A DNA stretch of 30,467 nucleotides from a virus: the IMG/VR virus record IMGVR_UViG_3300050821_013712, positions 1 through 30,467 of that record, one strand, 5' to 3'. Within the stretch, counting starts at the first letter, position 1; the number at the start of each line of letters is the position of its first letter. Under the pieces are notes generated by a model. That model had not been told where the DNA came from. It saw only the letters and a list, made by a program, of their open reading frames with translations, and searched no databases. Both the position numbers and the translations under genes were made by a program. Shown here piece by piece: positions 15,846-30,467 of this stretch.

Positions 15846-16987
15846 ATGCCCTAACTAATATACCGAAACCATCGCCTTATCCGGCGCCGCCTAATCCTAA
15901 TGCTTTGGTTCCTGTAAAAGCCTTAGCATCCGAAATCCTTGTTGGTGGTCGATCTGTTCTTGTTGCTACAAAGGATATAGTTGGTGGCTATATTGTAAAT
16001 CCTGCAACGACTAAGGATCAGGGATTATCGACCTTAACCAATTTATATGTGGATTTAACAGGACCCGCACAAACTTACCAGACTAATACAACCACACTTG
16101 TTCATCCAGGAGGATTCTTTAATCTTCCCGCAGCCCCCCAAGGTGTGTGGGTTAATTCGGCATCGAATGGCCATAAATTCTCCGCTGTTTTGGTAAAGAC
16201 ACAAGCCACCTTTGACGAGGAGAATACACCGCTACCAATTTACCAACAAGGCACTTTTCCACCTGGGGGACCCACGGGGCGCCTAGTAACGATTCCATCA
16301 TATCTTTACCAAGAATATTCAATGGACGATGATTTGCAGGCATTCGTTGCCGCTCAGAACTCCATGCAAAATAATATTGTGGATACATTCAATGGGCTTA
16401 ATCTTCCCGATTATACTCAATATCCAATTTCCGGTTCGCTACTTGATTGGGTAGCTGCGGGTCTGTACGGAATGATCAGACCTAGTTTGTCATCGGGTAT
16501 TTACAAATTATTGGGACCCTATAATACTGCGGAATATAATACTATAGTTTACAATGCCCGAGAGCTTTTATATCCCGATCAAATCGTCGCGACCAATGAT
16601 GATATATTCCGCCGTATCTTGACATGGCATATTTCCAAAGGCAATGGAAAGAATTTCAGTATCCAATGGCTCAAAAAACGGGTTATGAAATTCCTGATTG
16701 GTGATAATGGTAAAAATATCAACATTGATCAAACCTATCAAATCAGTGTGACCTTTGGGCCTAATTCCGAGGTTACAATCCGATTTGTTCTAGGTCTTAG
16801 AACCATTACAAATGGGTCTATGTATGACCAAGATAAATTTACATATAATTCCACAATGTATAATCAGCTGGATTCAATTTATGTGGCATATCCAAATTTA
16901 CCAAACATGTCCACGTTTGCAGAGGCAATCGCATCAGGGGTTCTTGAGCTTCCGTTCCAGTTCACCTACGATGTGGTTATTGGATGA
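15842..16987 (+). CDS. Outer baseplate wedge / fibre-docking protein
   Basis: A 381-residue protein beginning at ATG 15842 (ATGA overlap). Residues 155-381 (YLYQEYSMDDDLQAFVAAQNSMQNNIVDTFN, LLDWVAAGLYGMIRPSL, NDDIFRRILTWHISKGNGKNFSIQWLKKRVMKFL) resemble the protein that follows the J-type wedge in related phages, probably the gpI/gp6-partner position linking wedge to fibres. Residues 1-125 are an added N-terminal domain (GGYIVNP, LYVDLTGPAQTYQTNTTTLVHPGGFFNLPA, NGHKFSAVLV) clearly similar to the 94-residue protein at 18593-18877. This suggests a shared docking fold. The stop codon is in a small hairpin next to the homing endonuclease gene. Confidence 0.78.
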   Translation: MNALTNIPKPSPYPAPPNPNALVPVKALASEILVGGRSVLVATKDIVGGYIVNPATTKDQGLSTLTNLYVDLTGPAQTYQTNTTTLVHPGGFFNLPAAPQGVWVNSASNGHKFSAVLVKTQATFDEENTPLPIYQQGTFPPGGPTGRLVTIPSYLYQEYSMDDDLQAFVAAQNSMQNNIVDTFNGLNLPDYTQYPISGSLLDWVAAGLYGMIRPSLSSGIYKLLGPYNTAEYNTIVYNARELLYPDQIVATNDDIFRRILTWHISKGNGKNFSIQWLKKRVMKFLIGDNGKNINIDQTYQISVTFGPNSEVTIRFVLGLRTITNGSMYDQDKFTYNSTMYNQLDSIYVAYPNLPNMSTFAEAIASGVLELPFQFTYDVVIG

Positions 16988-16993
16988 ATAACC
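16975..16993 (+). promoter_or_regulatory. Hairpin at the start of the HNH endonuclease gene
   Basis: GGTTATT at 16975-16981 and AATAACC at 16987-16993 form a perfect seven-pair stem, extendable by a G-U pair, around the five-base loop GGATG. It spans the stop codon of the wedge gene and the only Shine-Dalgarno-like element of the endonuclease gene (GGATG, eight bases before ATG 16995). It may limit translation of the nuclease. No T-run follows, so it is not a terminator. Confidence 0.45.
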
Positions 16994-16994
16994 G

Positions 16995-17402
16995 ATGAGA
17001 AACAATCCTGAATATGTAGCTTGGGTAAACATGAGACGACGTTGCCTCCATAAAAATGGTATGGATTATCCTAATTATGCAGGTAGAGGAATCTTTATCT
17101 GTGACAGATGGCTAGATTCCTTTGATAACTTCCTACGGGATATGGGTTTAAGACCCAATCCAAAATATACTTTGGAAAGAATAGATAATAATGGAAATTA
17201 CGAACCAGATAATTGTATTTGGGCAACTCGCACAAAACAGGGACGTAATACTCGACGAATATCCCTTAGTCTGGAAAAGGCTGACGAAATACGACGGCTT
17301 TACAGACAAGGAGGAATTAACCAGACAAAATTAGCGGATATCTTCAAAGTTAACCAGACAACAATATCCGACGTTATTCGCAATACCGTCTGGAAAGGAT
17401 AA
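16995..17402 (+). CDS. HNH-type homing endonuclease
   Basis: A 135-residue freestanding nuclease. It matches the phage HNH pattern with YVAWVNMRRRCLHK, DYPNYAGRGIFICDRWLDSFDNFLRDMG (residues 24-51) and YTLERIDNNGNYEPDNCIWATRTKQGRN (58-85). The usual first His is replaced by Thr59 in the 'xLxRIDNxGxY' motif, as in some members. Residues 91-131 (LEKADEIRRLYRQGGINQTKLADIFKVNQTTISDVI) form a helix-turn-helix, likely for target recognition. ATG 16995 is the start; the ribosome binding site is weak and folded into a hairpin. It lies alone between baseplate and fibre genes and has no structural role, typical of a selfish intergenic homing gene. Neither flank is interrupted, so its target is probably nearby sequence in relatives lacking it. 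Confidence 0.88.
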   Translation: MRNNPEYVAWVNMRRRCLHKNGMDYPNYAGRGIFICDRWLDSFDNFLRDMGLRPNPKYTLERIDNNGNYEPDNCIWATRTKQGRNTRRISLSLEKADEIRRLYRQGGINQTKLADIFKVNQTTISDVIRNTVWKG

Positions 17403-26722: not shown

Positions 26723-26732
26723 TTTTCCCTCC

Positions 26733-26951
26733 TCATATAATACCGCCCCCGACGACGGGAGTCATCGGGGGCGAGTATCCTAGACGTTGCATCGTTTCAC
26801 GGGCCAATGTCTTGTCGCCGGAGGTTAGAACAGCGACTCCCTGCTCGGGAGACCGAACAATGCCTTGTAGTGGACTTATGGATACAGCAATCTCCACACA
26901 CCCTCGCCGGTAGTCTAGGTTCCGCTGCGGTTGCAAGGATACCCCGAGCAA
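26733..26951 (-). CDS. Possible small gene upstream of the exported protein
   Basis: A frame of up to 72 codons (TTG start at 26951; a GTG at 26897 would give 54 residues). Its stop TGA overlaps the ribosome binding site of the next gene on the same strand, suggesting coupling. The sequence EIAVSISPLQGIVRSPEQGVAVLTSGDKTLARETMQRLGYSPPMTP is protein-like with sensible composition, but neither start has a convincing ribosome binding site. No family was recognised. Without it, 26723-27000 would be a 278-base gap. Confidence 0.4.
   Translation of the reverse strand: MLGVSLQPQRNLDYRRGCVEIAVSISPLQGIVRSPEQGVAVLTSGDKTLARETMQRLGYSPPMTPVVGGGII
26745..26772. other. Strong GC hairpin
   Basis: GCCCCCGA at 26745-26752 and TCGGGGGC at 26765-26772 form a perfect eight-pair stem; three further pairs (GAC/GTC, 26754-26756 with 26761-26763) close a GGGA loop after one mismatch. 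No T-run on either strand. It ends about 22 bases before the minus-strand start at 26722, so it may shape the 5' region of that mRNA. Confidence 0.5.
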
Positions 26952-26972
26952 GTATCACCTTTCATTCTGTAT

Positions 26973-27001
26973 ACTAGCACAAAACGTTGTCCTGTGCTAG
27001 T
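26973..27001 (+). terminator. Hairpin between convergent transcription units
   Basis: ACTAGCACA at 26973-26981 pairs perfectly with TGTGCTAGT at 26993-27001 (nine pairs, eleven-base loop). On the plus strand it is followed by the T-rich TATTTGTGATTT, a weak terminator tail; on the minus strand there is no T-run, but the hairpin lies directly at the stop codon of the GcrA-like gene. It may serve both strands as an end structure. Confidence 0.45.
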
Positions 27002-27504
27002 TATTTGTGATTTACGGGTACATAAGGTTTTGGTGCAGATACCTGTTGTTTGGTCCGAGATATATTCTTGTGGTATTCACAATACACACCAACGACTCCA
27101 ATCGTCGAATTACCACAATATCGATAATATTTCTTGGGATCACCGATGATCCAAGCACAATCATATTGCTTTTTTTGCTCCAGAGTGATGAGGCGCATCT
27201 TAAAGTCATGTGGAGTTGGGTCAGAGATTTCTCTGGGTGGTTCTGGTTGGGACGCTTTCCTCTCTCTTTCTTTTTCTCTGACCTCTTTAGATCGGTCTAG
27301 TAGTTCTTGGAGGGCAGCCTTCTGCGCATCCTTTTCCCCATGGGACTCAGGGCGTTCGATATTATTCCGTCTAAGGTAACTTGAAACGCCCTTAGCAGTA
27401 AAACCGAACTCCTCTGCAATCCCCTTGATTGTACGCCCCGACTTTACCAATTCCACAACTCGATCGTGCTCCTCGGGAGAAAGGATAACAGAAGGCTTAC
27501 TCAT
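27001..27504 (-). CDS. GcrA-like transcription regulator
   Basis: A 167-residue protein; ATG 27504 overlaps the stop of the upstream gene (ATGA) with no separate ribosome binding site, so it is translationally coupled. Residues 9-48 form a helix-turn-helix (SPEEHDRVVELVKSGRTIKGIAEEFGFTAKGVSSYL). A charged helical linker (53-95) follows. The C-terminal module has CAWIIGDP (116-123), YCG (129-131) and VYCEYH (141-146), the signature of GcrA, the alphaproteobacterial cell-cycle regulator that binds sigma70-RNA polymerase and acts at GANTC-methylated promoters. Cys116, Cys130, Cys142 and His145 could bind a metal. A role in redirecting host or phage transcription is inferred. The GcrA-like C-terminus is the clearest host clue in the window. 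Confidence 0.85.
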   Translation of the reverse strand: MSKPSVILSPEEHDRVVELVKSGRTIKGIAEEFGFTAKGVSSYLRRNNIERPESHGEKDAQKAALQELLDRSKEVREKERERKASQPEPPREISDPTPHDFKMRLITLEQKKQYDCAWIIGDPKKYYRYCGNSTIGVVGVYCEYHKNISRTKQQVSAPKPYVPVNHK

Positions 27505-28412
27505 TTTGGGCTTGCTTCTCCGTTGTTAAAGTCCGGCTGGAGTTGCTTGAGGACAGTTGTCACAGCCAGAGGACCAAATTTCGCGTCCCATTGAGCTATG
27601 GTTGCGAACACTTCTGGGAACTCGGAACGGAACTCAAGGATAACATGAAGTGTGTCCTCCATCACTACATTGGTTAAGTTTTCAACCTCGAACCGTATCG
27701 CATTGAAAGGCGATAGAGCCGGGGGCGGCGGTATCACAGCAGCTTGTGGCGGTGTTACCACTGTTTTCTTCGGCGCAGCAGCCGGTGCTGGGGGAGCCGG
27801 TGTCGGTATTTCGTGCGCAACATCTGGACCCACATCTTCTGGGTTTAGTTCTGTTGCCTCATCACCAACTGCCTTCTTGAGGTCCGTTACTTTCTGGTAA
27901 CTCAATGCCGTGGATTTAAATATTTCCTCATCGGTTTTACCTTCTCTGATGAGGTCTTTAACTTCTGCCTCTGCTGCCGCCTCAGCAGACCGCAAAAGCT
28001 TTTGAGCAGCATCCCGATTCATTTCTGAGGATAAAATCTCATCGGCGGCTGCCTTTGAGACAATCGCCCGATTTAATTCAACCGCTCTAGCGATATATGA
28101 TAGGGATACAATATCGCAGGGTAAAAGATGACGCACTCGTTCCAATAGTAATGGATCAAAAACACGATGGATTGTCTCGTAATAAGAACAACTTGCTTGA
28201 CTAAGGAAAAGGACATTCTTACACGCGACAGTCCACGTACCACCCCACTTCTCTTTGTCCCGAAAGAATTCGGAATGAAATTCCCGAATCCGTCGTCCTT
28301 TCTCAAGGATAGCATCGAGTTCCATGAATGAGGCTTGCTGAATATATTCTCGCCACTGTTCCGCAGTCCTTATTGTTACTCCAGTCTCCTGGGCTACCGT
28401 GATATCTGTCAT
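27501..28412 (-). CDS. Putative regulatory protein, unknown function
   Basis: A 303-residue protein, ATG 28412 with TAGGAGAC upstream. The N-terminal 180 residues are helical (TAEQWREYIQQASFMELDAILEKGRRIREFHSEFF; KNVLFLSQASCSYYETIHRVFDPLL; DIVSLSYIARAVELN), with an arrangement distantly reminiscent of DUF3102/ParB-like phage proteins. An Ala/Pro-rich linker (residues 202-238: PTPAPPAPAAAPKK) joins a C-terminal helical domain (NAIRFEVENLTNVVMEDTLHVILEFRSEFPEVF). No enzyme motif is visible. It forms an operon with the GcrA-like gene (four-base overlap), so they may act together, possibly as DNA-binding partner. Unrecognised; the function is open. Confidence 0.75.
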   Translation of the reverse strand: MTDITVAQETGVTIRTAEQWREYIQQASFMELDAILEKGRRIREFHSEFFRDKEKWGGTWTVACKNVLFLSQASCSYYETIHRVFDPLLLERVRHLLPCDIVSLSYIARAVELNRAIVSKAAADEILSSEMNRDAAQKLLRSAEAAAEAEVKDLIREGKTDEEIFKSTALSYQKVTDLKKAVGDEATELNPEDVGPDVAHEIPTPAPPAPAAAPKKTVVTPPQAAVIPPPPALSPFNAIRFEVENLTNVVMEDTLHVILEFRSEFPEVFATIAQWDAKFGPLAVTTVLKQLQPDFNNGEASPK

Positions 28413-28447: not shown

Positions 28448-28597
28448 CTAATGACGACGACTCCTGTCCCATGTAACCTGAGTTCTTTCCCATAACTCCA
28501 ACCATTGTAGGATACTCATTCTACTCGGTCGATTTATTCGGACTCCCTCAATCACCACATAGTTCATATCGATGATTAGATCAGGTGCAGGCATCAT
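28448..28597 (-). CDS. Unlisted 49-residue protein downstream of polymerase
   Basis: Start ATG 28597 (second ATG at 28594), AGGAG on the minus strand at 28608-28604 six bases upstream, and stop TAG at 28450-28448. Protein: MMPAPDLIIDMNYVVIEGV, then INRPSRMSILQWLELWERTQ, then VTWDRSRRH. Composition is protein-like with a Trp-rich amphipathic helix; no membrane segment. It fills the 232-base gap between polymerase and 303-residue gene, and has a near-consensus promoter just upstream. No family was recognised. Size and position suggest a small early regulator or accessory protein. Confidence 0.65.
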   Translation of the reverse strand: MMPAPDLIIDMNYVVIEGVRINRPSRMSILQWLELWERTQVTWDRSRRH

Positions 28598-28610: not shown

Positions 28611-28639
28611 ATTATAACATAGAAGTCTGACCATATCAA
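28611..28639 (-). promoter_or_regulatory. Near-consensus sigma70 promoter
   Basis: On the minus strand TTGATA (28639-28634), a 17-base spacer, and TATAAT (28616-28611): one mismatch to consensus in all. It begins six bases after the polymerase stop. The predicted start near 28604 falls on the last base of the AGGAG of the 49-codon gene, so transcripts from here would lack most of that site and may serve mainly the 303-aa and GcrA-like genes. Confidence 0.75.
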
Positions 28640-28644
28640 GCTTT

Positions 28645-30467
28645 TTATTTCGGTATAGCGCCCCATGTAGGACCAAACTTTACGTCCACAACTGAGGGTA
28701 TAACCAATTCAACGGCGTGCTCCATGATCTCCTTAACACGCTCCGTTATCGTTCTGTCCGAGATACTAAACAGGAGTTCGTCATGGAGAGTCAATCTCAT
28801 AGGAATTTTTTCCGCCTTCAATAAAGACATGGCTTTTTTGGTTTGGTCTGCCGAAGATGATTGGCACAACCTATTCATTGCCTTATAGGTATCAATGATG
28901 ACTCCCATGCCCGCATTATCAAATCGGCATCGGCGTTTGAGAAGGGTGCAGATATAGCCCCGCTCCTTGGCTATATCTTCACACTCCTCAAATAGACCTG
29001 TTAAGAACGGAGCACCTTCTTTCCATTTCTTTAAGATTGCCTTTGCTTCATCGCCAGCGACCTCAACACATTGCTGGCCCTCAGATCGCCATCGATTAAT
29101 CTCGGAGTATGATATTGGAATCCAATTCGTTCGACTCCCGTTTATCTTCTCTAGCCTCATCCATTGTGTTGGCAGTCCAAGAGCGCGAGCCATTTTAGCT
29201 TGCTTCATTCCATACGCTAAACCCAGATTCAGTGTCTTAGCCCTATCTCGTTTAAGTCCAGAGAAATCGGCAACCATTTGATGATAATCGGTGCGTGGGT
29301 CACGCCGGAATTGCTCGACAGCATCCCTTGATCCACGTATCCCCGCCTTATAAGCAAAATGAACAGCCATTCGTGGTTCTTGGGACGAATAGTCGAGGGA
29401 TGCAAATTCTTCGCCCTCCTCTGGTAGAAATAGGGAGCGTATCTCTGGCCCCCATTCTGGGTCTCGCACTGGAATCTGTTGCAAAGCGGGATCGGAAGCT
29501 GACCATCGCCCTGTGACTGTACCAACACTTGATCCCTGTTCAGCGTCACTTTCACTCCGCAATTGGTTAAAAGAGGCGTGAAGTCTGCCATGATTCTCGT
29601 AATAGAGGATATGGCCTTCAATAAAGGTTCCAGAAATTTTAGACATTTTCCGAAGGTCAAAAATATATTTAGCCACCGGACTGGTTTTAGATTGCACCGC
29701 CAATAGTTCTGTATTGATTTGCCACGCTCCTTTGGCGGTCTTTTTAATCCCTTGCACCCCAGCCTCAGTAAGAGCGGCATAACAGGAATCAGCTTGCCAG
29801 GGCGATACTGTAATGCCTGTTAACCGTTTTATCTCGTCAACGGTTTCTGGCATTCGACGCTTTTGAATATCATCTGATAGCCATTGAGCCCGATCGACAT
29901 TGACCCGCAATCCTAATCTCTTCATATCCACTGCTGCGGTGATAAGATCACACTCCAAATCAAATATGGTAGTGAGGCCCTCTTCCTGGATCCTTGGCAG
30001 CATGGCATAGTAACACTGGAGAGTCCGCTCGGCATCTGTCTCCGCGTATCCAGCAACCACAGGGCCGGGAAGGTATTTCAGGCTTGCCATCATAGTGGTA
30101 TGTTTGCAGGCAAATTGTCCCTCTAGCTGTTTGAGGCGATCAGTCTCCTTGCCCGCACCTAAGCATCGCATGGATATGGCTTCTAGGGAATAGCTAAACT
30201 CATTCTCGTTTAGGAGTGCCGACATGTGTTGGACGTCGATAATTTTGCCTACAGGATATTGTCCTGTCTCACGAAACAACCAGCCCACGTCATAGTTGGC
30301 ATGAGCCATGACCCAAGTTAGGTCTTGTCGCTTGACTACGGATGCCAGCCATCGAAGTGGTGCATCAATGTCAATATTACCGCTGCAATGGCGCAGAGGA
30401 TAATAAGCTTTGTGTCCGGTCCAAGCGACTGAAAACCCAATGATCTCTCCTATGCCAAATGCCCAAC
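28645..30467 (-). CDS. DNA polymerase, family A, 5' end outside window
   Basis: The frame is open to the window's right edge (607 codons visible); the ATG at 30309 is not the true start because residues upstream of it (GEIIGFSVAWTGHKAYYPLRH) already belong to the 3'-5' exonuclease domain. Counting from that ATG: exonuclease motif II AHANYDVGW (2-10), motif III YAETD (88-92, Tyr and Asp present), then palm/fingers with motif A FASLDYSSQEPR (302-313, Asp306), motif B RDRAKTLNLGLAYGM (354-368, Arg354, Lys358, Tyr366) and motif C LTLHDELLFSI (506-516, His509-Asp510-Glu511). All catalytic residues are present, so it should be an active replicative polymerase with proofreading. Leu362 aligns with E. 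coli Phe762. It heads the minus-strand replication/regulation cluster. Confidence 0.93.
   Translation of the reverse strand, partial: WAFGIGEIIGFSVAWTGHKAYYPLRHCSGNIDIDAPLRWLASVVKRQDLTWVMAHANYDVGWLFRETGQYPVGKIIDVQHMSALLNENEFSYSLEAISMRCLGAGKETDRLKQLEGQFACKHTTMMASLKYLPGPVVAGYAETDAERTLQCYYAMLPRIQEEGLTTIFDLECDLITAAVDMKRLGLRVNVDRAQWLSDDIQKRRMPETVDEIKRLTGITVSPWQADSCYAALTEAGVQGIKKTAKGAWQINTELLAVQSKTSPVAKYIFDLRKMSKISGTFIEGHILYYENHGRLHASFNQLRSESDAEQGSSVGTVTGRWSASDPALQQIPVRDPEWGPEIRSLFLPEEGEEFASLDYSSQEPRMAVHFAYKAGIRGSRDAVEQFRRDPRTDYHQMVADFSGLKRDRAKTLNLGLAYGMKQAKMARALGLPTQWMRLEKINGSRTNWIPISYSEINRWRSEGQQCVEVAGDEAKAILKKWKEGAPFLTGLFEECEDIAKERGYICTLLKRRCRFDNAGMGVIIDTYKAMNRLCQSSSADQTKKAMSLLKAEKIPMRLTLHDELLFSISDRTITERVKEIMEHAVELVIPSVVDVKFGPTWGAIPK

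Follow-up and report, generated by a model that had tools for sequence, protein, structure and literature searches.

The operon and its surroundings

The window analysed here is a 30,467-base IMG/VR virus record, whose first 25 kb include genes for head, sheath, baseplate and tail-fibre proteins; judging from these genes, it belongs to a contractile-tailed phage. Toward its other end, on the minus strand, the stop codon of a DNA polymerase gene is directly followed by a promoter, a 49-aa ORF, a 303-aa gene and a 167-aa gene for a GcrA-like protein, in that order (Table 1). The positions and translations that an earlier note had given for the two larger genes, and their ATGA overlap of 4 nt, were confirmed.

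Table 1. Features of the locus, in window coordinates
Feature	Position	Strand	Basis
GcrA-like protein, 167 aa	27001..27504	-	PF07750, 28.7 bits against a cut-off of 26.9; dN/dS 0.109
N-terminal HTH, residues 10-46 of the GcrA-like protein	27367..27477	-	non-GcrA type; 8-10 bits against the phage GcrA DBD profile
Sigma70-interacting domain (SID) homologue, residues 108-155, CAWIIGDP...CG...YCEYH	27040..27183	-	35.9 bits against the profile of 104 phage GcrA SIDs; 5YIX superposition
303-aa helical protein, function unassigned, phage paralogue family	27501..28412	-	ORF, homologues, helical model
Small 49-aa ORF, first gene of the operon	28448..28597	-	translation; intact in both relatives
Sigma70-type promoter TTGATA-17-TATAAT, extended -10 TG	28611..28639	-	11/12 match to consensus
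Conserved non-coding stretch 3' of the GcrA-like gene, long hairpin at end	26726..27000	-	conservation, folding
Terminator-like hairpin	26774-26743	-	terminator scan
Family A DNA polymerase, upstream neighbour, 5' end cut by window end	28645..30465	-	PF00476, E 1.5e-47; phrog_17, E 1.3e-89

The locus was compared with two related IMG/VR contigs, G001 (76,778 bases) and a shorter one (14,565 bases). The GcrA-like protein is 91-92% identical in both and the 303-aa protein about 84%. Because both are conserved in the two contigs and have dN/dS values of 0.11 (GcrA-like) and 0.15 (303-aa), these ORFs are real, selected genes; the 49-aa ORF differs by 0-2 residues. No match to the 167-aa or the 303-aa protein was found by tblastn against isolated phages. 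The G+C content of the window is 48%, against 67% in the nearest genome contig, which is binned as Rhizobiales, and gammaproteobacteria are the hosts of most isolated phages whose capsid and terminase are related. Mainly from the SID, we infer an alphaproteobacterial host.

The 303-aa protein had been described as DNA-associated-looking and as a possible partner of the GcrA-like protein, and neither description found support. It gave no significant match, by sequence or fold, in Pfam, NCBIfam, PHROG, PADLOC or the PDB. In its model, which is helical, residues 193-258 form a Pro/Ala-rich stretch of low confidence. A ParB-like HTH was suspected by eye at about residues 53-101; alignment to ParB HTH domains with hhalign was weak (P 0.04, probability 1.3%), searches for a ParB HTH or DUF3102 gave no Pfam hit and no fold match, and DUF3102 was likewise absent from the relatives. 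The only basis for a partnership is the ATGA overlap. Two paralogues in G001, 38% and 28% identical, lie more than 20 kb by either route from the 303-aa gene, and relatives in two other phage contigs have no adjoining GcrA gene. A dedicated partnership is thus not supported, since this paralogous phage family occurs elsewhere without GcrA. A pattern match to CxWIIGDP in one contig (L133) was out of frame and was rejected.

The family sharing the N-terminal domain of the 303-aa protein was previously undescribed (L008:2734-3414 and L008:3543-4232, both in G001; L131:5968-6984; L132:5932-6669). In L131 and L132, partner genes that look ParB-like by eye adjoin the family member, with no Pfam hit. 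No homologues were found in bacterial genomes that hold related capsid genes, in a search run without a positive control.

The 275-nt non-coding stretch downstream of the GcrA-like gene has a mean column identity of 92%, at least as high as that of the coding genes, with equivalents in the relatives at L005:8849-9122 and L002:4754-5030. It folds better than 200 of 200 shuffled sequences (z -3.9), the hairpin at its end being GC-rich, and had no match in Rfam, phages or plasmids. One stem carries a TTCG loop in the relatives (GTCGC-TTCG-GCGAC) and a longer loop in the window, the stem being kept; RNAalifold on the three sequences showed no double-sided changes. An inverted repeat immediately downstream of the GcrA-like gene was considered as an operator and discarded, its outer arms being unconserved in the relatives.

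The GcrA-like protein and its two domains

GcrA is a cell-cycle factor of alphaproteobacteria and couples methylation to sigma70. Of its two domains, the SID contacts sigma region 2 and the DNA-binding domain (DBD, residues 1-45) reads methylated DNA (PMC7403470). The earlier note had called the 167-aa protein a GcrA homologue and had listed failure to match PF07750 among the findings that would speak against this. In hmmscan the whole protein lay 1.8 bits above the Pfam gathering score; a separate profile search of the window with the same family had returned zero candidates at first look. The NCBIfam GcrA equivalog, NF050816, was missed by far (17.9 bits against a cut-off of 280).

Separate SID and DBD profiles were built from 104 phage proteins with a complete SID, drawn from 117 viral contigs encoding C-x-W-P-I-G-D-P. 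When the protein was split, its SID matched well and its N-terminal half poorly, which explains the low PF07750 score of the whole. In the SID, residues C116, W118, I120-P123, C130, Y141, C142 and H145 are kept, all at positions that do not vary among the aligned phage GcrAs, although part of the compared core, including P119, had been fixed by the search pattern. The C-terminal signature, reported as intact, is so for the core C-x-W-x-I-G-D-P...C...YC..H, but P119, which the pattern fixes in the other phage proteins, is I in the window protein. The modelled SID superposes on that of Caulobacter GcrA (5YIX chain B) with an rmsd of 1.3 Å over 44 columns, a TM score of 0.75 by target length and a probability of 1.00; for a domain of this length, Foldseek gives an E value of only 0.15. 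Both 5YIX and 5Z7I entered the analysis through sequence and fold searches only.

The N-terminal HTH is not that of GcrA. The first 70 residues scored 9.9 bits against the DBD profile, or 8.2 bits within the SID-selected set, in which the median is 60 bits. Every other SID-selected protein with a recognisable GcrA DBD scored above 8.2, and below it were found only proteins that lack a DBD or are cut off from it. The DBD signature, an N-terminal W plus a recognition helix [RK][NS]xVxGKxxRL, is absent: the W present in 98% of the others is L (L8), the R/K-N pair is A-K (A37, K38), a G found in 98% is S (S42) and a K found in 94% is Y (Y43), in an aligned set chosen partly by the recognition-helix pattern but not by the W. 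The best Pfam HTH for this head was the resolvase-type HTH_7, below threshold (17.5 against 23.8 bits). Both domains are nevertheless under purifying selection, which is strongest on the head (dN/dS 0.067, compared with 0.118 for the SID), and the head is modelled as three helices with pLDDT of about 90. Because of this constraint and the confident model, the altered head is unlikely to be degenerate and is probably in use rather than decaying.

A phage of this type that is less closely related (contig G003:C666, here L164, from a Rhizobiales bin; major capsid 64% identical) carries its own SID-like open frame at 16899-17375, CSWPVGEP...C...YCLRH, with V-G-E-P in the core and a head that again lacks the GcrA helix.

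As judged by these profiles, the 167-aa protein is a member of PF07750 through its SID and no GcrA ortholog, because the SID matches while the DBD profile and the NF050816 equivalog fail. It passes the gathering score and carries the SID core except P119, and it shows neither mark of a functional GcrA, namely a score above the NF050816 cut-off or the W and recognition helix of the DBD. The claim of homology therefore stands for family and SID but not for the HTH. From the SID we also infer binding to sigma70 region 2.

Promoters, GANTC sites and a possible mode of action

The hexamers of the operon promoter are invariant across the three contigs. In G001, nine extended -10 sigma70 promoters were found over 77 kb, against 1.1 in shuffled sequences, mostly ahead of genes that do not belong to the structural module, and without consistent GANTC. 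Because of this excess the phage type seems to depend on host sigma70. These sites represent a promoter class TTGACA(A/G)GG-n-TGCTATAAT, located in L007, L008 and L005:7217, the AGG after the -35 recurring in several.

Nothing seems to tie this phage type to GANTC. The earlier note had pointed to GANTC methylation, by which host GcrA steers sigma70 promoters, had suggested that a phage version could tie phage transcription to the stage of the host cell cycle or displace host GcrA, and had proposed to look for a CcrM-type methyltransferase and for the distribution of the site. A profile search for PF01555 (N6_N4_Mtase), the one CcrM-related family covered, found no match in the 76.8-kb or the 14.6-kb relative. 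The observed-to-expected ratio of GANTC was 0.75 in the window and 0.61 in G001; TCNGA, a control with the same letters in another order, gave 0.80 and 0.62, and avoidance of GANTC as a sign of CcrM was rejected because the control was equally depleted. The operon promoter contains no GANTC, the nearest lying about 65 bases downstream. With the recognition helix lost as well, a link to GANTC methylation is not supported. A different base modification is predicted for this phage type, 7-deazaguanine, G001 carrying genes for a DpdA-like transglycosylase, QueE and QueC (L005:1466-2443, L005:4194-4901, L008:14409-15197).

What survives of the idea that a phage GcrA acts on transcription is a probable action on sigma70. 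Because the protein is phage-encoded and has a GcrA-type SID, action on the host sigma70 polymerase is the likeliest mechanism. On balance, we think it somewhat probable that the 167-aa protein is a sigma70 cofactor on the GcrA plan, whose DNA-binding head lacks the GcrA recognition helix and is aimed at targets other than GANTC. Such a protein would carry its DNA-binding head at one end of a linker and, at the C-terminus, a domain docking on sigma70 region 2. It would be produced during infection from the operon's own strong sigma70 promoter, bind the sigma70 holoenzyme through its SID and recruit it to sites that its own HTH selects, most simply phage promoters, or stabilise it there; at the same time it would occupy the surface to which host GcrA binds. 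Co-expression from the same transcription unit would extend to the 303-aa and the 49-aa protein, which does not imply a physical partnership. The SID core with its profile score and structural fit, the lost DBD signature, the constraint on the head and the host-like sigma70 promoters favour a cofactor of this kind. Against it count the narrow PF07750 margin, the NF050816 score and the change of P119 to I; in addition, the phage promoters identified come close to consensus, so that they should need little activation, and the host assignment is tentative.

The same data bear on three other accounts. The unusual head could be incidental if only the SID mattered, covering sigma70 region 2 and silencing the host genes that depend on GcrA; SID-only GcrA-family proteins do exist in other phage contigs (L037, L084, L039), but the window protein has an HTH and it is the most constrained part, and we consider such a decoy unlikely, if the least so of the three. 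An ordinary GcrA mimic, drifted and still binding methylated GANTC to switch on S-phase genes of the host or phage promoters that contain GANTC, would agree with the shared domain order and Pfam family and with the published proposal for phiCbK gp222 (PMC3556154). The loss of the recognition helix and Trp, both of which phiCbK keeps, speaks against it, as do the GANTC-free operon promoter, the GANTC ratios matching those of the control and the lack of a PF01555 enzyme in the relatives; we regard it as quite improbable. Least credence goes to a phage DNA-binding protein whose small Cys/His C-terminal module has the GcrA fold but a ligand other than sigma70. The short match, the low whole-protein score and the substitution at P119 would fit that account, yet the remaining core SID residues are all retained and the model fits the sigma-bound SID.

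Comparison with known systems

A phage GcrA homologue has been known since 2012, when one was reported in phiCbK and proposed to up-regulate host replication in swarmer cells (PMC3556154). What appears new here is a phage SID on an altered DNA-binding head, and, by their sequences, the existence of SID-only phage proteins. With Caulobacter crescentus GcrA (5YIX, 5Z7I, 7YE1, 7YE2) the window protein shares an N-terminal HTH, a linker and the SID motif. It differs in lacking the recognition helix, in missing the NF050816 cut-off and in its linker, where a helix is predicted at 57-85, whereas the GcrA linker is described as unstructured (PMC7403470). The GcrA proteins of phiCbK (gp222) and Brevundimonas phage Bajun are likewise phage-encoded, with an HTH plus a SID. 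However, phiCbK keeps the W and TKSAVCGK and Bajun the W and SRAAVIGQ, neither of which the window protein retains, and both are Dolichocephalovirinae with genomes above 200 kb.

The SID-only proteins of L037, L084 and L039 also belong to PF07750 and lack the GcrA DBD but, unlike the window protein, have no HTH at all. In L037 (773-2031) and L084 (467-1329), a methyltransferase-like gene is followed by that of a 94-aa SID-only protein, the two overlapping by the 4-nt ATGA; the former matches PF01555 in L037 and falls below the Pfam threshold in L084, with weak PADLOC hits only. At 10 of 117 loci, a count that takes in the two queries, methyltransferase-like hits lay near a GcrA-family gene and in every case on its strand. 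A general linkage between phage GcrA and family A DNA polymerase, suggested by the window, phiCbK and L037, was rejected as a rule (1 of 117 loci, with two queries). It is a possibility, if a rather doubtful one, that the SID serves phages as a detachable sigma70 handle, found with a GcrA head, on another HTH as in the window, or alone and overlapping a methyltransferase-like gene as in L037 and L084; the new head might even read deazaguanine-marked phage promoters instead of m6A.

A protein that keeps the sigma70 handle and changes the DNA-reading head would naturally separate the two halves of GcrA and could serve as a tool for the SID's own role. Sigma-binding regulators such as AsiA and Gp39 also come from phages and target host RNA polymerase by way of sigma, but they bind region 4 and repress, whereas GcrA binds region 2 and activates (PMC7403470). 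If the 167-aa protein works as we propose, phages would be seen to activate by way of sigma region 2 as well, a strategy beyond that of the regulators covered there, which act on region 4.
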